A stretch of DNA of 64,000 nt from Saccharopolyspora gloriosae (GTDB taxonomy: Bacteria; Actinomycetota; Actinomycetes; Mycobacteriales; Pseudonocardiaceae), in contig NZ_CP059557.1 in assembly GCF_022828475.1 (NCBI RefSeq), positions 4,635,470 through 4,699,469 on the forward strand, read 5' to 3'. Positions 40,388-62,657 of this stretch are shown here, one piece after another. The notes beneath the pieces are model-generated. The model was not told the origin of the DNA. It did no database searches and was given only the letters and a program-made list of their open reading frames with translations. The translations under genes and the position numbers were made by a program. Every line of letters begins with the position of its first letter. The stretch's first letter is position 1.

Positions 40388-41713
40388 TCAACGTGGCTGG
40401 TCGCGCAGCACGCCGCTGACGTTGAGCACCTCCACGCAGCGAGCCGCCTGCTGCCCCGAAGGCGGAGTGCCGGGCGCCGTGCAGTTCACCGCACCGCTCA
40501 CCCTCGCCTCCGCTGGGACCTGGATGGGAGTGACCCAGTGGTAGTCCTGGTTGCGGAAGGTTTCCAACGCGACCGTGGTCAACTGACGATCTCCGAAGTA
40601 AATGGTGAGGACGCCTTCATCACCTTGGAAGTTCGCCAGCACCAAGTCCGTGATGAACAACATCTTGCCTTCCGGAACCCGGTACACATCGGACGCACTG
40701 CCTCCCGGATCCGTGACCACTCGAATGGTTTCGGAGAACTGTCCACCATTCGGAGTCGTGTTCAGCCCCGGGGTGACTTCTTGGCCGGGTTGCTGCCCCG
40801 GCGGCTGTTCGCCGGGCGGTTCCGCCGGCGGAGGTTCGGGTTGCGCTTCCGGAGGCGGAGCCAGTTCACCGGCCGCCGCCATTTCCTGCGCCCGATTCGC
40901 CGCCGCTTCCTTGGCGGCGGTCTCCACCGTGGGCAACAACAACAGGTACCACGCCAGCAGCAATGCCAGCAGCAGCGCCAGCAGGGCGAGCAGCCAGCGC
41001 GGCAGCAGCGGCAGTTGGAGCAGCTCGCCGTCGAGCTGCTCGGGGCGTTCGTCGATCTCCGTCGTCGCTTCGGCGGCGAACCCCGCGTGCACCGGTTCCG
41101 CGACGAGCGCGCTCACCGGGGAAGCGGTGACCAGGAACGGTTTTCCGGTGGGTCTGCCGAACCAGATCAGCTTCGACACCCGCGCCCGCAGCCGGATCTC
41201 CACCTGATCGTCCGGTTCGATCGTGGGGCGGTCCGTTTCCAGCCGGAACCGCAGTTCTTCAGCGGGGTCGGTCGCGTCCAGCGGAACGGCGATCGGCGCG
41301 TTTCCCTGGTTGTGCAACACGATCAGGAAGCGACCCGAGTGCCAGGCGCGGCGACGCTGCGGCGCGAGCCAAGCCCGCAGCTGCTGGAACGGCTCGATGC
41401 GCACCGTCATCTCGGGCACCGCGACCAGATCGGGCTGCTCCACCGGCCGGACCCGCACCGCCAGCGGCGTCTCCCCGGCGTGCACGCTCGCGGAGCGCGG
41501 CGGGCGCAGCACCAGCGTCACCGTGCCCTGCGTGCCCGGATACAGCGAGAGCCGCGCGGGTTCGACGGCCGTCCACGCCGCGCATTCACCCACGACCTCG
41601 AACTCGTAGGCCTCCACGATGTCGGTGCCGTTGCGCACGGTCAGGGTCGTGGTGGCCTCCCCGCCCGGGGTGACCACGATCGTCGTGTTCTCCAACTCCG
41701 CTGAAGTGCTCAC
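40388..41713 (-). CDS. Membrane-anchored Ig-like protein of the CIS cluster (COG1470-type)
   Basis: The 441-aa protein has tandem beta-sandwich (Ig/fibronectin-like) domains at about 1-230 (TTTLTVRNGTDIVEAYEFEVVGECAAW...), one strong transmembrane helix about 236-260, a Pro/Gln linker about 283-313 and a C-terminal domain of about 125 residues with two Cys. Similar proteins, often named hydrolytic protein without evidence, occur in Streptomyces CIS clusters. The GTG start at 41713 is inferred from where homology-like sequence begins; its ribosome site is weak. It may form part of the membrane or stress interface of the system. Confidence 0.7.
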   Translation of the reverse strand: MSTSAELENTTIVVTPGGEATTTLTVRNGTDIVEAYEFEVVGECAAWTAVEPARLSLYPGTQGTVTLVLRPPRSASVHAGETPLAVRVRPVEQPDLVAVPEMTVRIEPFQQLRAWLAPQRRRAWHSGRFLIVLHNQGNAPIAVPLDATDPAEELRFRLETDRPTIEPDDQVEIRLRARVSKLIWFGRPTGKPFLVTASPVSALVAEPVHAGFAAEATTEIDERPEQLDGELLQLPLLPRWLLALLALLLALLLAWYLLLLPTVETAAKEAAANRAQEMAAAGELAPPPEAQPEPPPAEPPGEQPPGQQPGQEVTPGLNTTPNGGQFSETIRVVTDPGGSASDVYRVPEGKMLFITDLVLANFQGDEGVLTIYFGDRQLTTVALETFRNQDYHWVTPIQVPAEARVSGAVNCTAPGTPPSGQQAARCVEVLNVSGVLRDQPR

Positions 41714-41827
41714 CGAACGAAAGCTAAGCGCCCCGCACGTCACGCGGCAGGGACGCGCGGGCAGCGGAGGGGCAAGCCGACTGCCCCCGCCGACGCAGAA
41801 CCGCTTCCCCGAACCTCCGGCCGGAAG

Positions 41828-41935
41828 GAGTTCTTCAGAGTGATCTGCGTAGTGCGTCGGGTAGCGGAACCTCGGCGGCTCCGCCGCTGACAGGACGCAG
41901 ATCAAAAGATCGTTCTTCACGGACTCCCTTAATCC
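41828..41935 (-). repeat. Palindromic MITE-like repeat, copy 4 (internally deleted)
   Basis: The terminal inverted repeat GATCTGCGT (41842-41850 with 41895-41903) is intact. It encloses GTAGCGGAACCTCGGCGGCTCCGCCGCTGACAGG, a fused remnant of both ends of the longer copies. It shares the flank GAGTTCTTCAGAG with copy 5. Confidence 0.6.
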
Positions 41936-41968
41936 ACACAGACGTCTTCCGAGGTGAGGAGTGCTGAG

Positions 41969-42595
41969 ATGACGAGGAGAGTGCCCGTCGCGGTGCATGC
42001 GGGCGATCCGCTGCTGCAGGCCGGGGTGACCGCGCAGTTGCGCCCCCGTCCGGAAGTCGAGGTGCTCCGGCCGGACGAAGAGGAGCGGGCGGAGGTGTCG
42101 CTGGTCGTCGTGGATCGGGTGGACGAGTCGGCGGTGCTGTTGCTGCGCCGGTTGCAGCGGGCGTCGACGACCCGCACCGGCCTCATCGTCGGTGAGTTCG
42201 GGCAGAACGCGCTGCGCGTCACCATCGAGTGCGGGGTGGCGGCGGTGCTGCGACGCGCGGAGGCCGATCAGGATCGGCTGCTCGAGCTCATCACCGCGTT
42301 GGTGCGCGGGGAGGGCATGTTGCCGGGCGACATGCTCAGCAGGCTGCTGGATCACGTGGGGCGGTTGCAGCGCAATTCCGCCGACACGCAGGGATTCAAC
42401 CTCTCCACGCTGACCGCGCGGGAGGTGGAGGTGCTGCGGTTGATCTCGGAGGGTTTCGACACCGGGGAGATCGCGGTGAAGATGTCCTACTCGGAGCGCA
42501 CGGTGAAGAACATCCTGCACGAGGTCACCACCCGCTTGCAGCTGCGCAATCGCGCGCACGCCGTGGGGCACGTGATGCGCCAAGGGCTGATCTGA
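41969..42595 (+). CDS. LuxR-family regulator with a pseudo-receiver domain
   Basis: The 208-aa protein has a short receiver-like N-terminal domain (about 1-110) that lacks the acidic pocket and a clear phospho-acceptor context. A LuxR/GerE DNA-binding domain follows (LTAREVEVLRLISEGFDTGEIAVKMSYSERTVKNILHEV). Similar response-regulator-like genes border Streptomyces CIS clusters. It starts the plus-strand gene run and is divergent from the Ig-like membrane gene, so it is the best candidate for a cluster regulator. ATG 41969 is chosen; GTG 41954 is an alternative. Confidence 0.85.
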   Translation: MTRRVPVAVHAGDPLLQAGVTAQLRPRPEVEVLRPDEEERAEVSLVVVDRVDESAVLLLRRLQRASTTRTGLIVGEFGQNALRVTIECGVAAVLRRAEADQDRLLELITALVRGEGMLPGDMLSRLLDHVGRLQRNSADTQGFNLSTLTAREVEVLRLISEGFDTGEIAVKMSYSERTVKNILHEVTTRLQLRNRAHAVGHVMRQGLI

Positions 42596-42710: not shown

Positions 42711-45700
42711 ATGAGCGTGGTCCGGTCGGGACGGTCCGGTGTCGCGTTGGCCGGGGTGCTCGTGGTGCTGTGCGGGCTGATCTGGGTCCCGACGGCGACC
42801 GCGCAGCAGGTACCGGGGCCGCCGGCCGACGATGGGCGGATCGCGTTCTCCGGCACGGGAGGCCAGAGCTTGAGCGTCGCCCCGGGCGACGGCCGAAGTC
42901 CGTCCGAGCCGTACCTCGACGAGCCTTACGCTCAGGACCCGGACGCGCGCGGCGGGTTGGTGGTGTTCACCAGCCTCCGCGACGAGGCCACCGCGCAGGT
43001 GTACGTGCGGGACCGCACCGGAGCGGTGCACAAGCTCACCCACGGCCGCGATGCCGCGCATCCGAAGCTGTCACCGGACCTGCAGTGGGTCGTGTTCGAC
43101 TCCGCCGAGCACGGGAAGAAGGGGCCGCAGCGGGAACTGTGGATGGTGCGGGTCGACGGCAAGAAGATGTTCCGGCTCACCTTCTCCCCGGTCGACGAGA
43201 CCTGGCCGACGTTCTCCCCGCACGGCAAGAAGCTCGCGTTCGCGAGCAACGCCACCGGGAGCTGGCAGATCTACAGCCGATTCGTGTTCGGGAAGTTCGC
43301 GCATCTGCGCACCAAGGAGCCGACCGGGGGCGCGGTGCAGCCCGCCTGGAACCCGGTCGACGAGGACCGCATCGCCTACACCTGGGACGCGGACGGGAAT
43401 CCCGAGGGCACCGACGATCAGCAGGTGCGGGTGCTGTCCGGCTACCACCCGAAGACGGGCGTTCCGCTGCTGAGCGGGCAACAGTCGGGGTGGACCAACA
43501 GCTGGCCGGTGTGGCTGCCGGGTGGGGATTCGCTGCTGTTCCTGAGCCATTACAAGATCGGCGTGGGCCGGTCCGAGAGCACCTACGTCTACTGGGTCGA
43601 GGCTCCGACGGCACCAACGACGAGCACGCCGGTGCTGCTGCTCGACGAGGGCGGGGAGGTCTCCTCGCCGACGCAGCTACCGGACGGGAAGCTGCTGGTG
43701 TCACGTCCGACGGCGGCCGCGAACGTGGCGGTGCTGCAGGACATCCGGCCCGACGGCAGCGAGTCGCGCAGTCTCGGCGTGGACGTGCTGCACGAGGATC
43801 CGGGGGCGGTCGGCGACTCCGACAAGCTGTTCGAGCCCGGCGAGGATTACGACCCGTGGACGCAGCGGCAGTCCTACTCGCCGGACGGCGCGACGATCGC
43901 GGTGAGCGTGTTCAGCGGGCCTGCGGGCGATCGGGAGCAGCGGATCCAGCTGGTGAACTCGGACGGGACGAACCGGCGCGAACTGCGCATCGCCGATCGG
44001 CAACCGGGCGATTGGGAGACCGACGCCGCCTGGTCCGCGGACGGCACGCAGCTCGCCGTGGCGCGGCGTTCACCCGGCGGCCTGCCCACCGACCAGAGCC
44101 GCGGTAAGAGCCGCATCGTCGTCGTGGACGTCGAAACCGGCGAGGTCACCGACCGGGTGACGCCCGACGATCCCGCGGTGGACGACACCCAGCCCGTGTT
44201 CTCCCCGGACGGCGACACCCTCGCGTTCAGCCGGGGTGAGCTGATCAAGCAGCCCGGCGAGCGCTACAACCACATCTGGTTCGCCGAAACCGATGACCTG
44301 CGCCGGCAGCGCAACGTCACCGAAGAACTCTGCCAATGCCCGGAGATGGTGGTCGACGACAGCGCCGCGTTCTCCCCGGACGGGCGGAGCATGGCGTTCA
44401 ACCGGGAACCGCACGGCCTCTACCGCTTCGAACTCGACGATTCGAGCTGCGAGGTGATCCTGCCCAGCGACGAGGACGCGTGCACCGACACCCCGGGCCA
44501 GGTCGAGGAGGGCCAGGAACCGCCCGAGCACTTCCAGCCGCGCGACCTCAGCTGGTCACCGGACGGCAGACGCGCGGTGTTCTCCGAGCGGGCGGGCCAG
44601 GACGCCCCCGAACATCTGTCCATCGTGGACATGGAATCGGGTGAGATCACTCCGCTGACGCAGGGATTCCCGGGGCGCCAGAAGGAAGCCACGTGGCAGG
44701 CGACGGTCGACATGAGCGTGACGGCGCCCGCGCGCACCGATGAGATCGACGTGGGCGACTCGGTCCAGGTGACCGCGCAGGTCACCAACAACGGCCCCGC
44801 CGCCGCCCCCGGAGCGGAGGCGGACCTGACCGTCCCGGACGGGGCGCGGCTGACCGAGATCGATTCCAGCACCGGGCAATGCCGCATCGCCGATGGGCAC
44901 TGCTCGCTCGGGACGCTGCAACCGGATCAGACCGTGCGCGTCACCGCCACCGTCGTCGGCGTGGAAGGCGGCGACCGGCCGCTGCGCTGGGAGGCGGGCG
45001 GCCGGATGCGCGACAGCAGGCCCGCCGACAACACCGCCACCACCGTCGTCCCGGTACGAGCCCCGGAACCACCGCCGCCACCACCACCGCCTCCGCCTCC
45101 TGCCGGGCCGGGCGTGACGGTGCGCGCCGACCCGAACCCGTCTTACGTGGGCGGTCGCACCGACGTGGCGTTCACCGTGCGCAACACGGGCCGCTCCACG
45201 GCGACGGGCCTCAGCTTGGACATCGCGCTACCGCCGGGAATTCCGGTGACGGCGCTACCGCCGGGCTGCACCGCGACCCGGTGCCCGCTGCCGGACCTCC
45301 CGCCCGGCGCGGAACGGCCGGTGGTCCTGGTGCTGGCTCCGAACGCCGCACTGGAGGCCGAGATCAGCGGCACCTTGCGCACCACCGGAACGGACACCAC
45401 ACCGGCCGACAACGTGGCGCGCACCCCGTACCGGGTGTTGCAGCCGAGGATCATCGCGGTGCCGGAGGTCGGTGAGCCGGGTTTCGTGACGTCGGTGCGC
45501 GGCATCGATTTCCCGCCGGGCGTGCCGGTGCGGTTGAACTGGACGCCGGGCATCACCGCGGCCGCCGCACCGACGTTCCCGCGCACCGATGGCCGGTTCG
45601 CCGCGCAGCTGCTGGTCCTGCCGAAAGACCAGACCGGCCCGCGCACCATCACCGCCACCGGCCCGGGTTTCCGGGCGTTGCCCACGGATTTCCTGGTCAT

Positions 45701-45740
45701 CGCCCCGACAGTGCCGCCTCCGCTGCTGGGGCGCCGATGA
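42711..45740 (+). CDS. Secreted TolB-like beta-propeller protein with DUF11/CARDB-type domains
   Basis: The 1009-aa protein has a Sec signal peptide (about 1-31) and PD40/TolB-like beta-propeller repeats to about residue 655 (TFSPHGKKLAFASN, VFSPDGDTLAFSR, SWSPDGRRAVFSE). A DUF11-type Ig domain follows (about 663-780), then an uninterrupted proline stretch at about 785-797, a CARDB/DUF11-like domain (about 800-910) and a C-terminal IPT-like domain. It is presumably exported. Its place between the LuxR regulator and DUF4255 in the CIS cluster suggests a surface or envelope function linked to the system, but none is established. Confidence 0.8.
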   Translation: MSVVRSGRSGVALAGVLVVLCGLIWVPTATAQQVPGPPADDGRIAFSGTGGQSLSVAPGDGRSPSEPYLDEPYAQDPDARGGLVVFTSLRDEATAQVYVRDRTGAVHKLTHGRDAAHPKLSPDLQWVVFDSAEHGKKGPQRELWMVRVDGKKMFRLTFSPVDETWPTFSPHGKKLAFASNATGSWQIYSRFVFGKFAHLRTKEPTGGAVQPAWNPVDEDRIAYTWDADGNPEGTDDQQVRVLSGYHPKTGVPLLSGQQSGWTNSWPVWLPGGDSLLFLSHYKIGVGRSESTYVYWVEAPTAPTTSTPVLLLDEGGEVSSPTQLPDGKLLVSRPTAAANVAVLQDIRPDGSESRSLGVDVLHEDPGAVGDSDKLFEPGEDYDPWTQRQSYSPDGATIAVSVFSGPAGDREQRIQLVNSDGTNRRELRIADRQPGDWETDAAWSADGTQLAVARRSPGGLPTDQSRGKSRIVVVDVETGEVTDRVTPDDPAVDDTQPVFSPDGDTLAFSRGELIKQPGERYNHIWFAETDDLRRQRNVTEELCQCPEMVVDDSAAFSPDGRSMAFNREPHGLYRFELDDSSCEVILPSDEDACTDTPGQVEEGQEPPEHFQPRDLSWSPDGRRAVFSERAGQDAPEHLSIVDMESGEITPLTQGFPGRQKEATWQATVDMSVTAPARTDEIDVGDSVQVTAQVTNNGPAAAPGAEADLTVPDGARLTEIDSSTGQCRIADGHCSLGTLQPDQTVRVTATVVGVEGGDRPLRWEAGGRMRDSRPADNTATTVVPVRAPEPPPPPPPPPPPAGPGVTVRADPNPSYVGGRTDVAFTVRNTGRSTATGLSLDIALPPGIPVTALPPGCTATRCPLPDLPPGAERPVVLVLAPNAALEAEISGTLRTTGTDTTPADNVARTPYRVLQPRIIAVPEVGEPGFVTSVRGIDFPPGVPVRLNWTPGITAAAAPTFPRTDGRFAAQLLVLPKDQTGPRTITATGPGFRALPTDFLVIAPTVPPPLLGRR

Positions 45741-45756: not shown

Positions 45757-46449
45757 GTGATCCACGAAGTGGACGAGGGCCTGCGCCTGCTGCTGACCGA
45801 GGAGGGCGTGCCCGGTTCCGGGGTGGAGCTGGCTTTCGACCCGCCCACCACGGATTGGGCGGCGAAGCGCAACGCTCCCACGGTCAACGTGTTCCTTTAC
45901 GACATCCGGGAGTACGCGGCACTGCGCCAGCGCGGTTCGATCGAGAAGTTCGACGACGAGGGAAACGTCATCGGCCGGTTCGACCCGCCGCGCTGGTTCC
46001 AGCTGTCGTACCTGGTCACGGCGTGGACGAACCGCCCGCAGGACGAGCATCGACTGCTGGCCCAGGTGTTGCGCGGGCTGGTCCGGCACGAGGCGCTGGA
46101 CCCGCAGTGGCGCACCGGAACCCTCGAGGAGCTGGCCTTGGCGGTGTCGTTGGAGACCGGCGGTGAGCTCGCCGAGGGCCGCTCGCCCACCGACGTGTGG
46201 TCGGCGTTGGGCGGGGAGCTCAAGCCCTCGATCACGCTGCGGGTGACGGCGCCGCTGGCCGGGAACCTGCGGCCCGTCGGCCCGCCGGTGACCGAAGGCG
46301 TGGCCCTCGGCGCGCGGGCCGCCGTGGCCGACGGCGAGGTCGACGAGCAGCGGCACCTGCGCTACGAGGACACCGGCGCCGAAGGCGAGGCCTTCTCCTC
46401 GTCCCGGCCCCGGCCGGGCGGACGGCGGCGCATCCGGGGACCGTTGTGA
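45757..46449 (+). CDS. DUF4255 CIS cap protein (Pvc16-like)
   Basis: The 230-aa protein has the DUF4255/Pvc16 N-terminal domain: VIHEVDEGLRLLLTEEG, then APTVNVFLYDIREYAALR and WFQLSYLVTAWTNRPQDEHRLLAQVLRGL. In extracellular contractile injection systems this protein caps the sheath-tube end. GTG 45757 lies 8 nt after GGGAGG. Its stop overlaps the ATPase start (GTGA), so the two are translated together. Confidence 0.88.
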   Translation: MIHEVDEGLRLLLTEEGVPGSGVELAFDPPTTDWAAKRNAPTVNVFLYDIREYAALRQRGSIEKFDDEGNVIGRFDPPRWFQLSYLVTAWTNRPQDEHRLLAQVLRGLVRHEALDPQWRTGTLEELALAVSLETGGELAEGRSPTDVWSALGGELKPSITLRVTAPLAGNLRPVGPPVTEGVALGARAAVADGEVDEQRHLRYEDTGAEGEAFSSSRPRPGGRRRIRGPL

Positions 46450-48422
46450 GCGCCGAGTTGTGGGACCGGCTGCGGGCCGTGGAACAGCGGGTCCGGGAGG
46501 CGCTGGACGCGCGCGCCGACCCGGGCCGCGACGACCCGTACCGCGGCCTGTACCTGACCGAGGAACTGGTCCGGGAGGTCCTGGACACCCCGTCGTCCGC
46601 CTGGTCCGCCGAGCCCGGCCCGGTCGCCGAACCGGGCGCACGATTGTCCTGCCTCGCAACGGATTTCGGCCTGGACGCGTGGGACGTGGAGTTCCTGCTG
46701 ATCGCGCTGGCACCGGAACTCGACGCCCGCTTCGAACGCCTCTACGGCTACCTCAACGACGACGTGACGCGGCGCCGCGCGACGGCCGGGATGGTGTTGG
46801 AGCTGTGCGGAATGCCGACCGCGGGCGCGGGCCGGTTCCGCTTCACACCCACGTCCCCGCTGGTCGCGGGCGGCCTGCTGGAGGTGCAGGAGCCGGAGCG
46901 GCCGCTGTTGACCCGGACGTTGCGGGTACCGGACCGGGTCGTGGCGCACCTGCTGGGCGAGGACACGTCGGACCCGCAGGTGGGCGACCTGGCGCGGCTG
47001 GTGGACGAACCGGTCACCGACCCCGCGGAACTGGTGAAGCGCCTGGCGACCGGCCTCGACGCGGGAATCGGCGCGGTGCACTTGCGCGGCACGACGGGCG
47101 CCGCGCAGTGGGCGGTGGACGCCCTCGCGGTGAGCGGCCGTGCGGCACTCGTGCTGGACACGGCCGCCTTGGCCGCCGAGGCGGACCCGCCGATCGCGGA
47201 ACTCGTGCGCGAGGCGCGGCTGCACCGGGCGGGCCTGGTACTCGGCCCGGTGGAGAAGATCTCCCGTGCGGAAACCACGTTGCGGCGACTGCTCGACGCG
47301 GCCGAGCGGATTCCGCTGCTGCTGCACGGTTCCGGTGGCTGGGACCCGACGTGGGCGCGGCGATCCCCGCTCACGATCACGCTGCCGGAACCGGATCGGG
47401 CCTCACGAGCCGCCCAGTGGCACCGCGCGCTCACCGAGTCCGGAGCCGGCGCGGAGGTCGATCCCGAGGCGGTCAGCGCCTACCGCCTCAGCACCGAGCA
47501 GGTGCACCGCGCGGCATCGGTGGCGACCCGGCTGGCCCGTTTCGAGCAACGTTCCCTCACGGCGGCGGACCTGCGCACCGGAGTACGAGCGCAGAACGGG
47601 GCCGGTCTGGAACGTCTCGCCCGCCGCATCACCCCGAGCGTGACCTGGGACGACTTGGTCCTGCCCGAGCAGACCGCGCGGGCGTTGACGGAACTGTCGG
47701 TGCGCGCCCGCCACCGCGACCAGGTGCTCGGCGAGTGGCGGATGCGCCCCGGCGGCGGACGTGGCCGCGGCGTCCTCGCCCTGTTCGCGGGAGAGTCGGG
47801 CACCGGCAAGACGATGTCGGCGGAGGTCGTCGCCGCCGACCTGGGCATGGACCTCTACGTGGTCGATCTGTCCACAGTGGTCGACAAGTACATCGGTGAG
47901 ACGGAGAAGAACCTCGAACGCATCTTCACGGAAGCGGTGGAGGTCAACGGAGTCCTGCTGTTCGACGAGGCCGACGCCATCTTCGGCAAGCGCTCCCAGG
48001 TCAAGGACGCCCAAGACCGCTACGCCAACGTCGAATCGGCGTACCTGTTGCAGCGCATGGAATCCTTCGACGGCATCGCGGTGCTCACCACGAACCTCCG
48101 CGCCAACCTCGACGAGGCCTTCACCAGGCGCCTCGACGTGATCGCGGACTTCCCGATGCCCGAAGCGGCCCAACGCCGGGCGTTGTGGGACCGAACGCTC
48201 GGCACCGCTCTCCCCCGCGCCGACGACCTCGACCTGGACTTCTGCGCCGACCGCTTCGAACTCGCCGGAGGCTCCATCCGAGCCTGCGCGGTCACCGCCG
48301 CCTACCTCGCCGCCGAAGCCGCGAGACCGGTCACCATGACAGACCTCCTCACCGCCCTCCGCCAGGAATACGCCAAACTCGGCCGACTGGCCTTGGACTC
48401 GGAGTTCGGCGGAGCACCGTAG
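46446..48422 (+). CDS. CIS-associated AAA+ ATPase (Pvc15-like)
   Basis: The 658-aa protein carries an inactive N-terminal ATPase-like region and a C-terminal AAA+ domain with Walker A LFAGESGTGKTMS (about 448), Walker B GVLLFDEADAIFGKR (about 501), sensor AVLTTNLRANLDEAFTRRLD and a Ser/Gly lid. Afp15/Pvc15 ATPases are proposed to unfold or load cargo into the injection particle. The 3' 182 bp of this gene are duplicated at 48551-48732. Confidence 0.9.
   Translation: MSAELWDRLRAVEQRVREALDARADPGRDDPYRGLYLTEELVREVLDTPSSAWSAEPGPVAEPGARLSCLATDFGLDAWDVEFLLIALAPELDARFERLYGYLNDDVTRRRATAGMVLELCGMPTAGAGRFRFTPTSPLVAGGLLEVQEPERPLLTRTLRVPDRVVAHLLGEDTSDPQVGDLARLVDEPVTDPAELVKRLATGLDAGIGAVHLRGTTGAAQWAVDALAVSGRAALVLDTAALAAEADPPIAELVREARLHRAGLVLGPVEKISRAETTLRRLLDAAERIPLLLHGSGGWDPTWARRSPLTITLPEPDRASRAAQWHRALTESGAGAEVDPEAVSAYRLSTEQVHRAASVATRLARFEQRSLTAADLRTGVRAQNGAGLERLARRITPSVTWDDLVLPEQTARALTELSVRARHRDQVLGEWRMRPGGGRGRGVLALFAGESGTGKTMSAEVVAADLGMDLYVVDLSTVVDKYIGETEKNLERIFTEAVEVNGVLLFDEADAIFGKRSQVKDAQDRYANVESAYLLQRMESFDGIAVLTTNLRANLDEAFTRRLDVIADFPMPEAAQRRALWDRTLGTALPRADDLDLDFCADRFELAGGSIRACAVTAAYLAAEAARPVTMTDLLTALRQEYAKLGRLALDSEFGGAP
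48176..48357 (+). repeat. Parent copy of a 182-bp direct repeat (3' end of the ATPase gene)
   Basis: The segment recurs at 48551-48732 with 5 differences in 182 bases by direct comparison. It encodes the AAA+ lid region RALWDRTLGTALPRADDLD and following residues. Confidence 0.9.
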
Positions 48423-55349: not shown

Positions 55350-55775
55350 ATGCCCAACGAGATCTTCGCCAGCAGCGTGTTCTTCCGGCTGGCCATCGGC
55401 GGCAACGACCTCGGCCGCTTCCACACCTGCTCCGGGCTCGGCGCGCAGGTCGAGGTCGAGCAGTTCGCCGAAGGCGGCAACAACTCCTTCTCCTGGCAGC
55501 TGCCCACCCGCATCACCTGGACCAACATCACGCTGACCCGCCCGGTCACCAAGGACACCACGAAGATCTCCAAGTGGCTGTCGGACACGATGCGTCGCGC
55601 CGAACGCAAGAACGGCGAAATCGTCGCGCTGAAGCCGAATCTGACGCCCATCGCGCGCTGGCAGGTGATCGGGATCGTGCCCGTCAGCTGGCAAGGACCG
55701 TCGTTCGACCCGTCCAGCTCCGAAGCCGCGGTGGAAACCCTCGAAATCGCCCACGAAGGCCTGCAACCATCCTGA
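55350..55775 (+). CDS. CIS/phage tail tube protein (gp19-like), second copy
   Basis: The 141-aa protein is a second tube-family member: FFRLAIGGNDLGRFHTCSGLGAQVEVEQFAEGG, ITLTRPVTKDTTKISKWLSDT and AVETLEIAHEGLQPS. eCIS loci usually have two or three tube paralogues, the later ones forming the tube-baseplate junction. GGAG lies upstream of ATG 55350. It is followed at 13 bp by the LysM tube protein gene. Confidence 0.92.
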   Translation: MPNEIFASSVFFRLAIGGNDLGRFHTCSGLGAQVEVEQFAEGGNNSFSWQLPTRITWTNITLTRPVTKDTTKISKWLSDTMRRAERKNGEIVALKPNLTPIARWQVIGIVPVSWQGPSFDPSSSEAAVETLEIAHEGLQPS

Positions 55776-55788: not shown

Positions 55789-56508
55789 ATGGCCACCGCA
55801 TCGGGCAAGAACCTCACCCGCGCCGAAATTCTGATCATGGAACCGCCCGCGAAAGTCGGGGCGAAACCCGGCGCGACCATCAAACGCGTCAAGTTCCAGT
55901 TCAACCCGAACAAGCTCGCGCTGACCAAGAGCACCGAGTGGCGGCGCAAACCGGCCCGGATGGCCAGCGAATCGGCACTTCCCGAGTTCGTCGGCAGCGG
56001 ACCGCGCTCGCTGCAACTGGAAGTGTTCCTGGACGCCACCGCCAAGCACGACGACTCGGTGGAGAAGAAGGTCGAAGACCTCATGACCGCCTGCGTGCCC
56101 ACCCCGAAGAGCATCGCCGCCAAAACGCCCGCCAGCCCGTGGATCCGGTTCGAATGGGGCACCTCGCGGACCACCTCGTTCGACGGAGTGCTCTCCAGCT
56201 TCTCGGTGGACTACTCGCTGTTCGACGTGGACGGCAAACCGCTGCGCGCCACCTGCTCGCTGGGCATCGAGGAAGCCAGCGTCGACACGCCCGGCCAGAA
56301 CCCCACCTCCGGTGCGGAGAACTCCCGCCGCACCCACCGAGTCGTCGCCGGTGACAGCCTGCCGCAGCTCGCCTGGCGGGAATACGGCGACGCCACCGCA
56401 TGGCGGATCGTGGCGGCCGCCAACGAGATCGACGACCCGATGATCCTGGTGCCCGGCAGCGAACTGCTCGTACCGGCACTCGACGAGCTCGAACAGGACG
56501 GTGCGTGA
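55789..56508 (+). CDS. CIS tube/baseplate LysM-type protein (Pvc7-like)
   Basis: The 239-aa protein has the CIS tube-protein N-terminus (VKFQFNPNKLALTKSTEW, FVGSGPRSLQLEVFLDAT) and a C-terminal LysM-like domain (HRVVAGDSLPQLAWREYGDATAWRIVAAANEIDDPMILVPGSELLVPAL). In Afp/PVC particles this protein links the tube to the spike. AGGAGG precedes the ATG. Its stop overlaps the following ATG by one base. Confidence 0.92.
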   Translation: MATASGKNLTRAEILIMEPPAKVGAKPGATIKRVKFQFNPNKLALTKSTEWRRKPARMASESALPEFVGSGPRSLQLEVFLDATAKHDDSVEKKVEDLMTACVPTPKSIAAKTPASPWIRFEWGTSRTTSFDGVLSSFSVDYSLFDVDGKPLRATCSLGIEEASVDTPGQNPTSGAENSRRTHRVVAGDSLPQLAWREYGDATAWRIVAAANEIDDPMILVPGSELLVPALDELEQDGA

Positions 56509-58328
56509 TGGGCGCAGCGAAAGAACAGGACGGCCGGTCGTTCGCCGCCGACCCGATCGTCAAGATCCCCGGACCGCTGCCGCCCCCCTGGCAGGACCAG
56601 CTCACCTCGTGCGTCGTCGACGAGAACGTGGGGCTGCCCGACACGGCGACGGTGACGTTCCGCGACCCGAACCACGAACTGCTCACCGCCACCGGCATCA
56701 GCATCGGCTCACCGCTGACGGTGTCGATCACGACCGCCGGCGGCAAAACCCCGGAGAAGCTGTTCGCCGGTGAGGTCACGGCGCTGGAACTCGACTCCGA
56801 CAGCACCGGCTCGTTCACCGTGGTGCGCGCCATGAGCAAGGCGCACCGGCTGCTGCGCGGCCGCAAGGTCGTCGCGTTCAAGAACATGAACGCCGATGCC
56901 ATCGTGCGCAAAGTCGCCAAGGGCGCCGGGCTCAAGCCCGGCAAGATCCAGGCCAAGAAGATCACCTACACGCAGCTGGCCCAGCCCAACATCTCGGACT
57001 GGGAATTCCTGCAGAACCTGGCCGAGGAGCACGGCGTCACCGTGCGGGTCGACGAGCTCGGCAAGCTCGACTTCGCCCCGCTCACCCCTGCCACCTCCGC
57101 TCCCGCACCCACGACCTCGGCGACCAAGAGCCCGTTCGTGCTGGAGTACGGCCGCAACCTGATGGCGCTGCGGGCGGTGCTCACCTCCACCGACCAGGTC
57201 AGCAAGGTCGAAGTGCGCGGCTGGGACTTGAAGACCAAAAAGCCCGTGGTCGCCACCAAACCCGTCACCCCCAGCAAGACCATCATCCCCGGGCTCACCC
57301 CGGCGCAGGCGACCGCCAAGTTCGGCAAGAAGAACACCCTGGTCGTCACCGACACGCCCTACGGCACGCAAGCCGAGGCCAGAGCGGTGGCGGATTCGCT
57401 GGCCACGTCGATGAGCGCCGGACTCGGCGAGGTCGAAGCCGTCGCCGAAGGCGACCCCAAGCTGCGCGCCGGAACACCGGTGGCGCTGGGCAACGCGGGC
57501 AGCAAGTTCTCCGGCAAATACACCGCCACCGCCGTGCACCACGTGATCGAACCGGGCCAGGGCTACCGCACCACCGTGTTGGTGAGCACCACTCCGGACC
57601 GGTCGCTGGCCGGGCTCACCACCGGCGCCAACGCGCCCGACCGCGGACCGCGCATCCCCGGCGTTGCCAACGCGATCGTCTCCGACATCAAGGAACCCGC
57701 CAACGGCCAACGGGGCTGGGTGAAACTCACATTCCCCTGGCTGGACGCCAAATACGTCTCCGATTGGGCGCGGACCGTGCAGCTCGGCGGGCAAGGCGGC
57801 GGCGTGATCAGCCCGGACGTCGGCGACGAAGTGCTCGTCGGCTTCGAACAAGGCCTGCTGGACCGGCCGTACGTGCTCGGCGGGCTCTACAACGGCAAGG
57901 ACAAACCGTCCAAGCACAAGACAAAGCTGCTCGAAGGAAAGAAGGTCGGCCGCCGGTCCCTGGTCTCCCGCACCGGACACCGGCTCGAACTGCTCGACGC
58001 CAAAAAAGGACCGCCCGGCGTGTCCATCGCCAGCGGCAACGAGCGGCTCGAAATCCGGCTCGACCAGACGAAGAACTCGATCGAGGTCGCCGTCAAAGCC
58101 CCCGGCGGCCGCCGAGCGCTCAGTTCGATGACGCTGGACCCGCGCGGCATCACCCTCGACGCGACCACCGGCGACATCACCCTCAAAGGCAAGAACATCT
58201 CCGTTGACGCCACCCTCAACGCCAAGATCAACGCCAATACCACCGCCTCGCTCTCCGGCAAGGTCGGCGCCAACGTCGACGGCGGTGCCAACGCCAGCCT
58301 CCGCGCCCCGATCGTCCGGATCAACTGA
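56508..58328 (+). CDS. VgrG/Pvc8-like spike protein (gpV-type baseplate assembly protein)
   Basis: The 606-aa protein joins a gpD-like domain (VTFRDPNHELLTATGISIGSPLTV, SDWEFLQNLAEEHGVTVRVDE) to a gp5/gpV OB-fold (VKLTFPWLDAKYVSDWARTVQLGGQGGGVISPDVGDEVLVGFEQGLLDRPYVLGGLYNG). A C-terminal repetitive beta-helix follows. It forms the trimeric spike hub that is tipped by PAAR. No extra effector domain is fused at the C-terminus. ATG 56508 overlaps the previous stop (TGATG). Confidence 0.95.
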   Translation: MGAAKEQDGRSFAADPIVKIPGPLPPPWQDQLTSCVVDENVGLPDTATVTFRDPNHELLTATGISIGSPLTVSITTAGGKTPEKLFAGEVTALELDSDSTGSFTVVRAMSKAHRLLRGRKVVAFKNMNADAIVRKVAKGAGLKPGKIQAKKITYTQLAQPNISDWEFLQNLAEEHGVTVRVDELGKLDFAPLTPATSAPAPTTSATKSPFVLEYGRNLMALRAVLTSTDQVSKVEVRGWDLKTKKPVVATKPVTPSKTIIPGLTPAQATAKFGKKNTLVVTDTPYGTQAEARAVADSLATSMSAGLGEVEAVAEGDPKLRAGTPVALGNAGSKFSGKYTATAVHHVIEPGQGYRTTVLVSTTPDRSLAGLTTGANAPDRGPRIPGVANAIVSDIKEPANGQRGWVKLTFPWLDAKYVSDWARTVQLGGQGGGVISPDVGDEVLVGFEQGLLDRPYVLGGLYNGKDKPSKHKTKLLEGKKVGRRSLVSRTGHRLELLDAKKGPPGVSIASGNERLEIRLDQTKNSIEVAVKAPGGRRALSSMTLDPRGITLDATTGDITLKGKNISVDATLNAKINANTTASLSGKVGANVDGGANASLRAPIVRIN

Positions 58329-58360
58329 CCTGTTGTTCCCGCAGCACAAGGAGTTCCGCG

Positions 58361-58674
58361 ATGCCCCCAGCCGCCCGGCTCGGCGACCCCACCAGTCACG
58401 GGGGCACCGTCGGCCCACCTCCGCCGCCCGCGGCGGCCCGGATCGCCACCGTGCTCATCGGCGGGAAACCCGCCGCGGTCACCGGCAGCCAGGTCATCTG
58501 CCCCATGCCACCACACGCCGTGCTCGGGCCTGCCAACGTGCTGATCCCCAGCCCGCCGCGCGGGGCGTCGTGCTCATCGGCAACCTGCCCGCGGCGAAGA
58601 TGCTGGACAAGAGCAGCTGCGGCGCCCAAGTCGTGATCGGCGCCCCCAACGTGCTGATCGGAGGCCCGATGTGA
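58361..58674 (+). pseudogene. PAAR-domain spike tip protein, frameshifted
   Basis: The first frame from ATG 58361 encodes PPAARLGDPTSHGGTVGPPP, IATVLIGGKPAAVTGSQVIC and HAVLGPANVLIPSPPRG. The PAAR repeats then continue in the -1 frame (VVLIGNLPAAKMLDKSSCGAQVVIGAPNVLIGGPM) to TGA 58672-58674. Loss of one G from the G-run at about 58560-58565 restores a 104-aa PAAR protein. PAAR proteins sharpen the spike and can carry effectors. The restored stop overlaps the next GTG in the usual operon fashion, which supports this end point. Sequencing error in the homopolymer is a serious alternative. Confidence 0.8.
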
Positions 58675-59093
58675 GCGAACGATTCATCGGCCGCGGCTGG
58701 GGATTCCCGCTGCGCGTCAGCGCCACCGGCGGCATCGGCCTCGTCGAACGCGAGCAGGAGATCGAAGAGGCCATCCGGCTCGTCCTCGGCACCGCGCCCG
58801 GCGAACGCCCCATGCGCCCCGAATTCGGCTGCGGCGTGCACGACTACGTGTTCGCGCCCGCCGACGGCGCCACCGCGGGCCGGATCGCCTACGAAGTGCG
58901 CAGCGCACTGCATCGCTGGGAACCGCGGATCGAAGTCACCGATGTGGTGATCGCGGTCGACGACGACGAGGAAGGCGTGCTCTACATCGACGTGCACTAC
59001 ACGCTGCGTTCCACCAACGACCGCCGAAACCTCGTGTTCCCCTTCTACACCATCCCCGACGGCGGCGAACCCTCGACGGGAGGTGCGATCTGA
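58671..59093 (+). CDS. Baseplate wedge protein gp25/GPW
   Basis: The 140-aa protein has the gp25/GPW fold: GRGWGFPLRVSATGGIGLVEREQEIEEAIRLVLGTAPGERPMRPEFGCGVHDYVFAPAD. The EEAIRLVLxTxxGERxMxPxFG core is diagnostic. It is a wedge subunit that initiates sheath attachment at the baseplate. GTG 58671 overlaps the PAAR stop. Confidence 0.95.
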   Translation: MSERFIGRGWGFPLRVSATGGIGLVEREQEIEEAIRLVLGTAPGERPMRPEFGCGVHDYVFAPADGATAGRIAYEVRSALHRWEPRIEVTDVVIAVDDDEEGVLYIDVHYTLRSTNDRRNLVFPFYTIPDGGEPSTGGAI

Positions 59094-61057
59094 TGGCGAT
59101 TCCCTCGCCCAACCTCGACGATCGCCGGTTCCAGGAACTCGTCGACGAAGCCAAGCGCTACGTGCAGCAACGCGCCCCGGAATGGACCGACCACAACGTC
59201 TCCGACCCCGGCGTCACGCTCATCGAGACCTTCGCGCACATGGTGGATCAGCTGATCTACCGGCTGAACCGGGTACCGGAGAAGAACTACCTCGCGTTCC
59301 TCGACCTGATGGGCGTGCGGCTGTTCCCGCCCGCCGCCGCTCGCGGCGACGTCACGTTCTGGCTTTCCGCCGCACAGCAGGAAACCGTGCTGCTCGATCG
59401 CGGCACCGAAGTCGCCACCGCGCACTCGGAACTCGAACAGGACGTCGTGTTCGCCACCGCGGACGACCTGCCGATCGTGCCGTGCGAACTGCGCACCCTG
59501 GTGACGATCTCCGCCACTGGCACCATCGAGGACCGCACCGCCGACCTCGGCGCGGAACGGGACGTGCCCTGCTTCCAAGCCGAACCCGCCCCCGGCGACG
59601 CCATGCTGTTCGGGCTCAGCAACGCCGTGCCCCGCTGCGTGATCTCCGTGGAACTCGACAGCCAAGTCGAAGGCATCGGCGTCGACCCGCGCCAGCCGCC
59701 GCTGACCTGGGAAGCCTGGGACGGCACCGGCTGGGCCGAGTGCGAAGCCTTCGACGACACCACCGGCGGGCTCAACCGGCCCGGCGAAGTCGTCCTCCAG
59801 ATCGGCCCCGACCACGTGCTGTCCGCCGTGGCCGGAGTGCGCGCGGGCTGGCTGCGCTGCCGCGTCGTAGCACCCGAGACGGGCCAGCCGTTCTACTCCG
59901 AATCCCCCACCGTCCGCGTCGCCGAGGTCTCCACCGTCGGCGGCACCACCACCGTCGAACACGCCGAAACCCACACCGAGGTGATGCTGGGCGAATCCGC
60001 CGGAGTACCGGGCCAGCGGTTCACCCTCGAAGAGGCTCCCGTGCTCACCGACGGCGACCCGATCGTGGTGCAGGTGTCCGACGGTGACGGCTGGGAGGAC
60101 TGGACCGTCGTGGACCACTTCGGCCGCTCCGGGCACGCCGACCGGCACGTCACGCTCGACGCGACGACCGGGCAGTTCAGCTTCCCGCCCGCCGTGCGCG
60201 TTCCCGACGGCAGCGTGCGCAACTGGGGCGCGGTGCCCGCCAAAGGCGCGCAGATCCGCGTCGCGCGCTACCGCACCGGCGGCGGGCGAGCGGGCAACGT
60301 GGCGCGCGGCGCGATCTCCGTGCTGCGCAGCTCGGTTCCCTACATCTCCGACGTGGAGAACCGGGAGGCCGCCATCGGCGGCATCGACGGCGAAACGGTG
60401 TCCGAGGCGAAAGTGCGCGCGCCGCAACAACTCCAGCTCCAAGAACGCGCAGTGACCGCGGCCGACCACGAGCAGATCGCCCGCCAGGCGGCACCCGCGG
60501 CGGCCCGCATCCGCTGCCTGCCCGCGGGCAGCGACCACGAACCCGGTGCCGCCCGGGTGCTCGTCGTACCCGACGCGGTACCGGACAGCGGTGACCGCAT
60601 CCGCTTCGAGCAGCTCATCCCCTCCGAACAACTGCTGTCCACCGTCGCCACCCGGCTCAACGAACGTCGGCTGCTGGGCGCCCGGCTCATCGTGGAACCG
60701 CCGTTCTACCAAGGGATCACCGTCGTGGCCCGGATGCGCGGCACCAGCGACGACGTGAACCGGATCAACAACGACGCGCTGAACGCGCTCTACCGCTACA
60801 TCAACCCGTTGCACGGTGGTGTCGAGGAAACCGGCTGGCCGTTCGGACATCCCGTGCAGGCCGGGGAGATCTTCGCCGTGCTCCAGCGCGTCGGAGGCGT
60901 CGGCATCGTCGACGAGGTGCGCCTGTTCCCGGCCGACCCGATCACCGGCAGGCGCGGCGCCCCGGCGGACCGCATCGACCTCGCGCGGCACGCGCTGGTC
61001 TTCTCGCACCAGCACCAAGTGGTGGTCAACCCGCCGGACGGTGCGGAGCCGAGATGA
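59093..61057 (+). CDS. Baseplate assembly protein J (gp6/Pvc11-like)
   Basis: The 654-aa protein contains the gpJ/gp6 baseplate fold. The N-terminal RFQELVDEAKRYVQQRAPEWTDHNVSDPGVTLIETFAHMVDQLIYRLNRVPEKNYLAFLDLMGVRL is characteristic of Afp11/Pvc11 proteins. The C-terminal half contains RVLVVPDAVPDSG and ARLIVEPPFYQGITVVARMRG. It forms the baseplate wedge ring with gpI. It overlaps gp25 by one base and gpI by four. Confidence 0.93.
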   Translation: MAIPSPNLDDRRFQELVDEAKRYVQQRAPEWTDHNVSDPGVTLIETFAHMVDQLIYRLNRVPEKNYLAFLDLMGVRLFPPAAARGDVTFWLSAAQQETVLLDRGTEVATAHSELEQDVVFATADDLPIVPCELRTLVTISATGTIEDRTADLGAERDVPCFQAEPAPGDAMLFGLSNAVPRCVISVELDSQVEGIGVDPRQPPLTWEAWDGTGWAECEAFDDTTGGLNRPGEVVLQIGPDHVLSAVAGVRAGWLRCRVVAPETGQPFYSESPTVRVAEVSTVGGTTTVEHAETHTEVMLGESAGVPGQRFTLEEAPVLTDGDPIVVQVSDGDGWEDWTVVDHFGRSGHADRHVTLDATTGQFSFPPAVRVPDGSVRNWGAVPAKGAQIRVARYRTGGGRAGNVARGAISVLRSSVPYISDVENREAAIGGIDGETVSEAKVRAPQQLQLQERAVTAADHEQIARQAAPAAARIRCLPAGSDHEPGAARVLVVPDAVPDSGDRIRFEQLIPSEQLLSTVATRLNERRLLGARLIVEPPFYQGITVVARMRGTSDDVNRINNDALNALYRYINPLHGGVEETGWPFGHPVQAGEIFAVLQRVGGVGIVDEVRLFPADPITGRRGAPADRIDLARHALVFSHQHQVVVNPPDGAEPR

Positions 61058-61620
61058 CCAGACAGGCAGTGCCCGGTCTGCCCAGCCGCTACCCGCTCGG
61101 GGAGCTGCTGCCCGGACTGTACGCGGGCGACGACCTCGCCCAGCGGTTCACCGCCGGGCTGGACACCGTGCTCGCCCCCATTTTGTCCACATTGGACAAC
61201 TTGGCGTACTACTTCGACCCGAGGGTGGCACCGGAGGACTTCGTCGCCTGGCTCGCCGGCTGGGTGGCGATGGAGCTGGAACCGGACTGGCCGCCGGAAC
61301 TGCGGCGTGCCGTCGTGATCCGCGCCGTCGAACTGCACCGCTGGCGCGGCACCGCGCGCGGACTCGTCGACCGGCTCTGGCTCTGCCTCGGCGTGCACGC
61401 GCGCGTGTTCGATGGACCCGGCGCCGCCTGGTCCACCAGCCCCGCCACCGCGCTGCCCGGCGCTCCCACCACTGAAGCGCGCGTGCAGGTGTGGCCCGGC
61501 CGCGCGGCGGTGAACCGCGAGCAGGTCGTCGCACTGGTCGACGCGCACTGCCCAGTGCACCTGACCTGCACCGTCGAGGTCATGTCCGGGCCACCTCAGC
61601 AAGAACGGAGGCGAACATGA
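61054..61620 (+). CDS. Phage tail protein I (gpI/Pvc12-like)
   Basis: The 188-aa protein has the short gpI-type baseplate domain: PLGELLPGLYAGDDLAQRFTAGLDTVLAPILSTLDNLAYYFDPRVAPEDFVAWLAGWVAMEL and ELRRAVVIRAVELHRWRGTARGLVDRLWL. It is shorter than Pvc12 and carries no receptor-binding extension. The absence of any tail-fibre gene nearby fits a cytoplasmic rather than secreted CIS. It overlaps its neighbours by 4 bp on both sides. Confidence 0.92.
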   Translation: MTRQAVPGLPSRYPLGELLPGLYAGDDLAQRFTAGLDTVLAPILSTLDNLAYYFDPRVAPEDFVAWLAGWVAMELEPDWPPELRRAVVIRAVELHRWRGTARGLVDRLWLCLGVHARVFDGPGAAWSTSPATALPGAPTTEARVQVWPGRAAVNREQVVALVDAHCPVHLTCTVEVMSGPPQQERRRT

Positions 61621-62657
61621 TGCGCCCCTGCCCGACCTGCGGCGCGAACACCGCCGAAACCGACGACTTCTGCGGCAACTGCGGCTCCTACCTCGGCTGG
61701 GACGCCACCGTGAAGAAGCCGGTGCCACCACCGCCACAGCAGCCGCCGCAGCCTCCTCCCGGGCAGCCCCCCGCTCCGCCCGCACCTCCCGGCCCGTATT
61801 CCGCGCCCGGACCACCGCCCGGCGGACGACCAGGCCCGGCACCAGGGCGCCACGCCCTTCCCGATCCCGAACCCGCCCAACCCGAGCCGGAAGACGACCA
61901 ACCCGCCGCCGTGCAACCGGCGAAACCCGTCGCACCCCGCCCCGAGTCGCAGACCGTCGTGCCCACCACTCCCCAGGACGGCCCGCCGTGCCGCTCCTGC
62001 GGCACCCCCAACCCACCGGATCGGCGCTTCTGCGTGCGCTGCGCGACGCAGCTGATCGGACCGGAGCCGGAGCCGACGCGCTGGCTTTCCCGGAAACGGC
62101 GCAACAACAACGGTCTCGGCTGGCTGTGGCGGCGACTGACGATCCTCAGCGTGATCCTCGCGCTCGTGATCGGCGGCTACCTGCTGTTCCCGTTCGGCCA
62201 GTGGGCCGTGCAGGACATCCTCGACAAGACCATGGATGCCTCGAACGTCGAACCGGCGAAGATCACCGCGAGCAGCGAGATGTCCGGCCACCCCGCTACC
62301 GCCGCGGTCGACGAAATCACCAACCAAGGGTGGGGGACCACGGACGTCGGCGAGTGGATCGAGTTCGAGTTCGACCCGCCGTTCCGGCTGCTGAACGTGC
62401 TGGTCACCACCGGGCCGACAGGGAAGTCCTTCGAAGCCCAAGCCCGCCCTACCCGAATGGAGGCCGTCATCACCGACGCGAACGGAGTCACCCAGAGCCA
62501 CCTCCTCCAGCTCGCCGCCGCCCACGAAGCGAAGCCGTTCAGCATCCGGGTCAGCGACGTGCGACGAATCCGGCTCGTGGTCCACGAGACCACCGGCGTC
62601 ACCAGCGGCAAGCACATCGAACTGGGCGAGGTCGAGTTCCAGAAACGAGGAAACTGA
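61617..62657 (+). CDS. Zinc-ribbon / transmembrane / discoidin-like protein of the CIS operon (CisA-like candidate)
   Basis: The 346-aa protein has two zinc ribbons (CPTCG...CGNCG at about 5-23; CRSCG...FCVRC at about 125-142) separated by a proline-rich linker. A transmembrane helix follows at about 174-195, then a C-terminal beta-sandwich that resembles a discoidin/carbohydrate-binding domain (ITASSEMSGHPATAAVDEITNQGWGTTDVGEWIEFEFDPPFRLLNVLVTTG). The N-terminus would face the cytoplasm and the sandwich the outside. Position and architecture recall the membrane adaptor reported for Streptomyces CIS (CisA), which brings particles to the membrane. That equivalence is inference. Confidence 0.75.
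   Translation: MMRPCPTCGANTAETDDFCGNCGSYLGWDATVKKPVPPPPQQPPQPPPGQPPAPPAPPGPYSAPGPPPGGRPGPAPGRHALPDPEPAQPEPEDDQPAAVQPAKPVAPRPESQTVVPTTPQDGPPCRSCGTPNPPDRRFCVRCATQLIGPEPEPTRWLSRKRRNNNGLGWLWRRLTILSVILALVIGGYLLFPFGQWAVQDILDKTMDASNVEPAKITASSEMSGHPATAAVDEITNQGWGTTDVGEWIEFEFDPPFRLLNVLVTTGPTGKSFEAQARPTRMEAVITDANGVTQSHLLQLAAAHEAKPFSIRVSDVRRIRLVVHETTGVTSGKHIELGEVEFQKRGN

Follow-up and report, generated by a model that had tools for sequence, protein, structure and literature searches.

A probable type IId contractile injection system separating tatC from a lipid kinase gene in Saccharopolyspora, with a candidate tape measure

Introduction

The closest described relatives of the system treated here are the type IId contractile injection systems (CIS) of Streptomyces coelicolor and S. 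lividans, a type for which a cytoplasmic, membrane-recruited mode is already known. In S. coelicolor, CisA is a membrane adaptor required for contraction (PMC12237407), Sco4256 to Sco4258 are effectors (PMC10066040), and section 11 of PMC10020575 treats the Sco4256-type protein as a putative toxin. A tape measure gene is stated to be absent from this system in both PMC12237407 and PMC10066040. Here we examine a 64,000-nucleotide stretch of the Saccharopolyspora gloriosae genome (contig NZ_CP059557.1, positions 4,635,470 to 4,699,469 of the forward strand), referred to below as the window, whose sequence reveals a cluster that matches the type IId system of Streptomyces in gene content and arrangement. 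We consider it likely that this region is a type IId CIS inserted between tatC and a lipid kinase gene, cytoplasmic and recruited by a CisA-like protein, with a 914-amino-acid (aa) protein rich in VQR motifs as its tape measure. What the parts are, the order in which they lie and the insertion common to the genus are established at the level of sequence.

A gene set matching the Streptomyces particle

Gene content was screened with Pfam, NCBIfam, PHROGs (ten structural proteins) and solved structures, the last of these searches covering nine structural proteins and the CisA homolog; start codons in the coordinates below are our own choices. All nine structural proteins searched (cap, sheath, both tubes, hub, spike, gp25, gpJ and gpI) had their best solved match in entries 8bky, 8bl4, 9gtp, 9gtr or 9gts, at E values from 3.5e-26 to 1.1e-264. 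The search output carries no organism, and we take these entries to be the S. coelicolor particle. The published reconstruction of that particle contains nine proteins, in agreement with this identification (PMC12237407).

The insert (38351-62760) begins with 2 minus-strand genes, for an HTH/NB-ARC protein and an Ig-like membrane protein, followed by a LuxR-type regulator and a PD40/DUF11 protein. Behind these, on the plus strand, lie the Pvc16/DUF4255 tail terminator or cap (45757-46449; Pfam 2.1e-37; 9gts, E 1.6e-55) and a Pvc15-like AAA+ ATPase (46446-48422; Pfam AAA 1.2e-23, WHD 1.6e-25), and then, past a minus-strand eCIS_core (DUF4157) gene, the sheath (49755-51275; Pfam 1.2e-25 and 3.7e-21; 8bky, E 4.7e-226) and tube 1 (51526-51966; Pfam gp19 3.1e-29; 8bl4, E 3.5e-26). 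A tail assembly chaperone homolog with a zinc-ribbon-like end (51963-52430; PHROG 508, E 2.4e-6), a DUF6760 gene overlapping it by 4 bases (52427-52585; Pfam 5.4e-17) and the gene for the 914-aa protein (52590-55334) separate tube 1 from tube 2, the tube initiator (55350-55775; Pfam gp19 1.1e-34; 9gtp, E 1.2e-45). The remaining plus-strand genes encode a CIS_tube and LysM hub protein (55789-56508; Pfam 1.5e-25; 9gtp, E 1.4e-71), a VgrG-like spike (56508-58328; NCBIfam VgrG_rel 765.8 bits; 9gtr, E 6.3e-130), a PAAR spike tip (58361-58674), the baseplate wedge proteins gp25 (58671-59093; Pfam 1.7e-28; 9gtp, E 7.9e-55), gpJ (59093-61057; Pfam 1.2e-13; 9gtp, E 1.1e-264) and gpI (61054-61620; Pfam 4.5e-12; 9gtp, E 2.3e-36), and finally the CisA homolog.

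Every part that a first-pass annotation of this DNA had listed (sheath, tubes, LysM, VgrG, PAAR, gp25, gpJ, gpI, cap, AAA+ and DUF4157) was thus recovered by family searches. That inventory left the gene at 52590-55334 unmentioned, its DUF4157 entry needs correcting to a minus-strand gene with the core domain only, and the minus-strand Ig gene, extended there to 42856, is 40388-41713.

The cluster encodes 2 tube paralogs and no fiber gene, its structural proteins are closest to the solved Streptomyces particle, a CisA homolog lies downstream of the baseplate genes, and a Sco4256-type effector is encoded, all of which point to type IId. A prophage remnant or R-type tailocin would account for the sheath and tube proteins, which share phage families, but the genes for the cap, the AAA+ ATPase and the eCIS_core and CIS_tube proteins are typical of CIS, the phage sheath that ranks first shows 25.9% identity, and no lysis genes were found. 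A sheath falling inside the diversity of phage sheaths, accompanied by lysis and fiber genes, would have favored this explanation, and neither was observed; we regard it as close to negligible.

A conserved gene neighborhood interrupted in one genus

Pfam confirmed the flanks between which the cluster had been placed in the first-pass annotation: on the left the YegS/DAGK lipid kinase (37439-38350, minus strand; YegS_C 3.9e-50) with helY, a DEAD/DSHCT helicase, beyond it (34425-37391, minus strand; DSHCT 1.8e-40), and on the right tatC (62761-63726, minus strand; 9e-63). Synteny was compared in 150 genomes sampled from the family, 68 of which have the sheath, including all 6 of the genus with the present one counted. 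A tatC match was found in all 150 (142 of them have rows among the matches listed), and the lipid kinase was found in 116 at E 1e-50. Where both genes were located, they lie less than 1 kb apart in 98 of the 116 genomes (median 72 bases), and a gap of 24.4 to 32.6 kb occurs in 6, which are exactly the 6 genomes of the genus; the other cases have gaps of 1 to 10 kb (four), positions on different contigs (six) or gaps of more than 50 kb (two).

The empty site, with tatC beside the kinase, is thus the common state in other genera. The earlier claim that ancestral synteny is interrupted holds, with the qualification that the break is found in 6 of 6 genomes of the genus and is not special to this one. 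Two relatives of another genus, G063 and G091, with sheaths 87% and 85% identical, carry a similar CIS on a separate contig and keep tatC and the kinase adjacent. Because a gap of this size occurs only in the genus and these close CIS relatives retain the empty site, the insertion most likely arose in the ancestor of the genus. A mobile-island signature was sought at the ends of the insert and rejected: the longest direct word common to the two 500-base ends is 9 bases, no longer than in 40 shuffles (mean 9.3, maximum 13), and no integrase family occurs among the genes scanned.

Proposed membrane recruitment and cargo

The CisA homolog (61617-62657, plus strand) sits directly after gpI and has 4 CxxC motifs forming two zinc-ribbon pairs, one transmembrane segment (near residue 167) and a discoidin-like C-terminal domain, the latter scoring 36.4 bits for NADase_discoid, slightly under the 38-bit cut-off. 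Each of the 5 Streptomyces genomes searched has a homolog 1 to 3 kb beyond its CIS locus, with 29-34% identity over the main piece; a search with the window's protein against solved structures gave no clear match.

The Ig-like membrane protein (40388-41713, minus strand; 441 aa) has 2 Ig/pilus-chaperone-like domains, one transmembrane segment (near residue 231) and a variable C-terminal part, a domain plan that agrees with that of Sco4256-4258. In an AlphaFold model built from 35 sequences, residues 1 to about 200 are Ig-like and resemble SPD-2/ASH domains and pilus chaperones, and the C-terminal part is poorly modeled, with pLDDT mostly below 50 after residue 284. Homologs occur in 63 of 82 loci searched (80 Streptomyces loci, many of them contig-cut, and two plasmids), 25 of these loci holding two or three copies, and all 60 of the matches listed, out of 87, are on the minus strand. 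Since it is homologous to Sco4256-4258-type effectors, the protein is better read as cargo than as a recruiter, and we rejected the recruiting role. Of the zinc-ribbon and Ig-like membrane proteins to which the first-pass annotation had pointed in arguing for membrane recruitment, the zinc-ribbon protein behind gpI is the CisA homolog.

That annotation had also reported no holin, lysin, tail fiber or secreted receptor-binding gene. None of the proteins scanned with Pfam, NCBIfam and PHROGs belongs to a holin, fiber or lysin family; the endolysin PHROG match of the LysM protein (3.5e-8) spans only residues 163-232, its LysM end. The statement about secreted genes was not right, because the PD40 beta-propeller and DUF11 protein (42711-45740, plus strand; Pfam; 1009 aa) has an apparent signal peptide by eye. 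This CIS-linked accessory gene occupies the same place in all 6 genomes of the genus. Among the 15 loci L130-L144, 14 likewise have it there and the other is contig-cut; it has no match in the 80 Streptomyces loci, many of which end before that place. A secreted-looking protein and core parts like those of PVC and Afp are what an extracellular CIS released by lysis would offer. We nevertheless find this reading very unlikely, given that no fiber, holin or lysin gene occurs among the proteins scanned, that the CisA homolog occupies the fiber position, and that the closest solved relatives are of the cytoplasmic type. The cytoplasmic, membrane-recruited reading proposed earlier by analogy with Streptomyces is instead supported, because a CisA homolog follows the baseplate genes and no fiber or lysis family was found.

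By analogy with experiments in S. coelicolor, the particle would assemble free in the cytoplasm. The baseplate would form first from gp25, gpJ, gpI, VgrG, the LysM hub and the tube initiator, followed by tube and sheath, which the Pvc16 cap would close, with the VQR-repeat protein presumably serving as tape measure and luminal spine whose chain length sets the length of the particle. On a signal, the CisA-like membrane protein would recruit the particle, and CisA-dependent firing into the producer's own membrane may then release the Sco4256-type membrane effector. The cluster is accompanied by the gene of a LuxR-type regulator (41954-42595, plus strand; Pfam GerE 5.9e-13) and by that of an HTH and NB-ARC (STAND) protein assigned by Pfam (38462-40054, minus strand), a probable regulator, possibly of the CIS. 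The latter gene stands beside the CIS, within the insert, in all 6 genomes of the genus, and beside the CIS in two further family loci (L134 and L139).

Integrity of the cluster

Not all parts of the system are open in this genome. In the PAAR gene, whose first frame matches Pfam PAAR at 4e-11, the frame shifts near 58555, and since the gene is a single open frame of 96-104 aa in the six relatives read, so that it is broken only here among 7 genomes, the shift is either a recent break or a sequencing error. The system was called complete in the first-pass annotation, and all its parts are detected, yet completeness is doubtful unless the PAAR break is a sequencing error.

Next to this stands an eCIS_core protein without a toxin part (48954-49520, minus strand; 188 aa; Pfam eCIS_core 1.4e-26), Sle2-like in place and size. 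The interval between the ATPase and this gene measures only 0.53 kb and holds a duplicated fragment of the ATPase 3' end (48550-48732, plus strand; 183 bases, 97% identical to 48175-48357) together with what, by eye, is the last part of a gene resembling a glyoxalase. In three close relatives the interval is 6.2 to 8.1 kb long and contains TetR regulators, oxidoreductases and a glyoxalase (by eye); a Sle1-like effector was looked for there by reading the open reading frames (ORFs) and none was seen. Two relatives (G079 and G046) have an eCIS_core protein that continues for about 400 residues and reaches into the interval.

The broken frame, the shortened interval and the core-only protein could together mark an inherited CIS that, in this strain, is decaying, unarmed and on its way to losing function. 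However, the remaining structural genes have open frames, as do those for CisA and the Sco4256-type effector, and the products are 57-99% identical to those of the three closest relatives, the lowest value belonging to CisA in G101, with the long VQR protein more divergent. Moreover, three relatives combine a core-only eCIS_core protein with an intact PAAR gene, the working cluster of S. coelicolor is described in PMC10066040 as having no PAAR gene, and a single frame break could be a sequencing error. We therefore think decay unlikely.

A candidate tape measure behind the chaperone gene

In phages, the tape measure gene follows those of the tail assembly chaperones. In the window, the chaperone gene stands two before the 914-aa gene, with DUF6760 between them, and the place so defined, after the chaperone and before the hub, is referred to here as the slot. 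Chaperone homologs were found in 58 of 58 loci looked at; of this set, 59 with the window included, 49 were scanned, 10 with an ORF running far upstream being left out, and 45 of the 49 match the same PHROG.

The slot is occupied with great regularity. Both flanks are visible in 50 of the 80 Streptomyces loci, and in 46 of these 50 a single ORF of 1013-1486 aa lies between them, the other four showing one short ORF (547 aa), two assembly gaps and one frame break. The gene is likewise open as one frame in 27 of 27 lineage-A loci of the family and in seven genomes of the genus or near it. The 80 lineage-A proteins collected, 769 to 1486 aa long, have conserved ends and a variable middle, with one such gene per cluster. 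A profile of their last 50 residues, a helix in the C-terminal part, matches 13 of 13 slot proteins (E 2.1e-9 to 0.0099) of the related lineage B, in which the sheath shares 58-63% identity with that of the window. Of 4354 ORFs, it hits none outside the slot at E up to 10. The lineage-B slot proteins contain an internal eCIS core domain (12 of 13 by profile) and hardly any VQR. From position, family conservation, the C-terminal profile and its VQR count, the window's Pro-rich protein appears to be a good candidate for the length-setting protein thought missing from type IId CIS, offered where papers on S. coelicolor report none.

Alternatively, the 914-aa protein may be cargo, a linker or a loading scaffold rather than a length ruler. 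VQR motifs occur both in the slot protein and at both borders of the effector eCIS core domain (see below), Streptomyces loci with sheaths 94-99% identical to the query differ in the size of the slot protein (1280 to 1433 aa), and the lineage-B slot protein itself carries a core domain. The presence of a single such gene per cluster, after a chaperone gene, and its conserved ends and variable middle argue against this. We hold it to be a serious possibility that still falls short of the tape measure interpretation.

Several observations weigh against the overall interpretation as a CisA-recruited type IId CIS with a tape measure in the slot. The slot protein of the window has no transmembrane segment, neither it nor that of S. 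coelicoflavus has a PHROG tape-measure match, and among six slot proteins scanned only one, of lineage C, gives such a match (E 0.0017); because no homology to tape measure families was found, we do not class the slot protein as a member of the phage tape measures. The C-terminal profile misses the slot proteins of lineage C and finds 1 of 5 from Deinococcus (E 0.0011), and in lineage C and on the Deinococcus plasmids the slot-type gene comes after the second tube gene, not before it. Section 5 of PMC13277306 describes tape-measure-like coiled coils in Sle1 of S. lividans, which is encoded elsewhere. CisA was detected in purified particles in PMC10020575 but not in PMC12237407. The broken PAAR frame, the missing toxin part of the eCIS_core protein and a length comparison resting on proxy species belong to the same side of the argument. 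A search of the open-licence PubMed Central (PMC) literature found nothing linking tape measures with proline-rich or disordered proteins.

For that comparison, the extended particle of S. coelicolor has a published length of 233 nm when measured in situ and of 268 nm as modeled, and those of Roseiflexus castenholzii, Calidithermus chliarophilus and Deinococcus aquatilis measure 217, 238 and 365 nm. Slot proteins have 1300-1356 aa in three Streptomyces loci whose sheaths are 97-99% identical and, on five Deinococcus plasmids, 1973, 1838 (annotated as 1831), 1817, 1506 and 1259 aa, the last in D. grandis, where the gene lies directly behind the sheath and no separate tube genes are annotated. 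Slot proteins are thus longer in Deinococcus (1506-1973 aa in 4 of 5), and D. aquatilis also has a longer particle than S. coelicolor, the same direction in proxy species; because the species differ, this is a lead rather than a test. For S. coelicolor itself, the locus with an identical sheath (L050) ends inside the slot gene. With the 1354-aa protein of S. coelicoflavus standing in for it, 233 or 268 nm corresponds to 0.172-0.198 nm per residue, and particles of about 157-181 nm would be predicted for the window's organism if length scales with the slot protein. A search of the open-licence PMC literature on lengths found nothing. The Deinococcus plasmids (L195-L199) hold type-IId-like CIS clusters of their own, with very long slot-type proteins that contain an eCIS core domain.

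A motif common to slot proteins and effectors

Pro, Ala, Ser and Thr are abundant in the lineage-A slot proteins, which contain from 4 to about 30 [VIL]QR motifs. The window's protein has 11 VQR where 0.26 would be expected from its composition. Among 1668 ORFs of at least 250 aa in 61 family loci, 26 have at least 5 motifs and exceed expectation more than 5-fold, and all 26 lie in the slot; the slot protein of L153, with four motifs, misses this threshold.

The same motif flanks the core of effectors. Lineage-A-type eCIS_core proteins were drawn from family slots, unlinked genes, the genus and near genus, and Streptomyces; [VILM]QR occurs within 60 residues before the core in 79 of 90 of them (5.6 expected from shuffles) and 10 to 90 residues after it in 60 of the 62 with a long C-terminal part (3.5 expected). 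The corresponding counts before and after the core are 2/12 and 1/12 in lineage B, 1/6 and 5/6 in lineage C, 1/1 and 0/1 in lineage D, 0/9 and 4/9 in lineage E (one gene counted twice), and 2/5 and 0/5 in Deinococcus. A strict rule tying VQR to the AAA+ loader was considered and rejected, as lineage C has the downstream motif (5/6) although none of its 6 loci has the ATPase, and lineage E, with the ATPase in 10 of 10, shows the upstream motif in 0 of 9. We infer a docking role for VQR. No CIS paper on this motif was found in the open-licence PMC literature, and one published survey reports that no conserved N-terminal loading sequence was detected.

The eCIS_core domain was found in 67 of the 150 family genomes, 64 of which, counted by eye, are among the 68 with a sheath. 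The genome studied here has two further eCIS_core genes. One of these (3119165-3120349; 394 aa) is unlinked to the CIS; Pfam finds only the core in its product, and the C-terminal part looks deaminase-like from its HAE and PC motifs, judged by eye. This gene is flanked on one side by 315 bases matching the 3' end of the ATPase gene (75% DNA identity) and on the other by 278 bases matching the 5' end of the sheath gene (79%), arranged and oriented as they are in the CIS (L202 8757-10728, equal to G000:C1:3118756-3120727). Adjoining the cassette, far from the CIS, are a TraG/VirD4-type coupling protein and a helicase-type gene, the latter presumably similar to conjugative relaxase-helicases. The same coupling protein occurs in G120 (95%) and G079 (81%). 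In G079 the neighboring genes can be aligned on either side of the cassette, with different DNA between them; for G120 the comparison covers a single side. The ATPase and sheath arms were found in none of the other 18 unlinked eCIS_core loci, of 19 in total.

The simplest reading of this arrangement would be a homology-armed effector cassette on a conjugative element, its rival being a leftover of a decayed CIS. Sheath starts were also searched for in 390 genomes, for which only the best matches are listed, so that fragments can be missed. The lineage-B cluster of G264 has a second, inverted sheath 5' end (315 bases, 81% identical) at a distance of about 5 kb from the sheath gene (L222 7860-8170 and 12931-13243), with no eCIS core motif found between the two copies.

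These elements can be joined in a broader proposal. The VQR slot protein would be both the missing type IId length ruler and a cargo spine, VQR would be a lineage-specific code, present in 4 to about 30 copies in the ruler and also bordering the effector cores, that is read by the same tube, hub or loader component, and effector cassettes would be exchanged into the interval between AAA and sheath from conjugative elements with matching AAA-3' and sheath-5' arms. We consider this combination doubtful as a whole and put it forward tentatively. With a candidate gene for the tape measure, a predicted particle length and a short motif common to slot protein and effectors, cargo picking and length setting become directly testable.

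Comparison with described systems

A second CIS of another lineage is present in the same genome (G000:C1, about 4454500-4468700; L003 and L221), with a sheath 44% identical. It is this system, not that of the window, which resembles the Tme-type CIS of S. davawensis, where a large eCIS core protein near the baseplate genes is described as tape-measure-related (PMC11126660); its counterpart here is a 2242-aa protein with an N-terminal core and four hydrophobic segments. An assignment of lineage B to the S. davawensis Tme type was dropped, as lineage E fits better. PVC and Afp share the core tail parts, the AAA+ ATPase and the cap with the window's cluster but have their own fiber (Afp13) and tape measure (Afp14) genes, families not found here, and are released.

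The linear plasmid of Streptomyces sp. NBC_01324 (NZ_CP108387.1) comes much nearer. It shares the order hydrolytic (Ig) protein, LuxR, 1065-aa hypothetical protein, DUF4255, AAA, sheath, tube, zinc ribbon, DUF6760, 1020-aa hypothetical protein, tube, LysM, VgrG, PAAR, gp25, gpJ, gpI and zinc-ribbon protein. It differs in carrying the CIS on a plasmid, in having the 1065-aa protein in place of the PD40 protein, and in that no DUF4157 gene is annotated between AAA and sheath and no NB-ARC gene is listed.

With CIS-Sc/SLP (SCO4242-4260) the window's cluster has in common the same 9 structural proteins and gene order, a LuxR-type regulator, a Sco4256-type effector, a CisA at the end, and a small antisense eCIS_core gene upstream of the sheath. 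The present cluster departs from it in encoding one effector copy where S. coelicolor has three, in its PD40/DUF11 protein and (broken) PAAR gene, in a core-only eCIS_core protein without a Sle1-like neighbor, and in a slot protein shorter than in the three Streptomyces loci above (914 against 1300-1356 aa). On this comparison, the cluster extends the cytoplasmic CIS group beyond Streptomyces by a member found throughout this genus.

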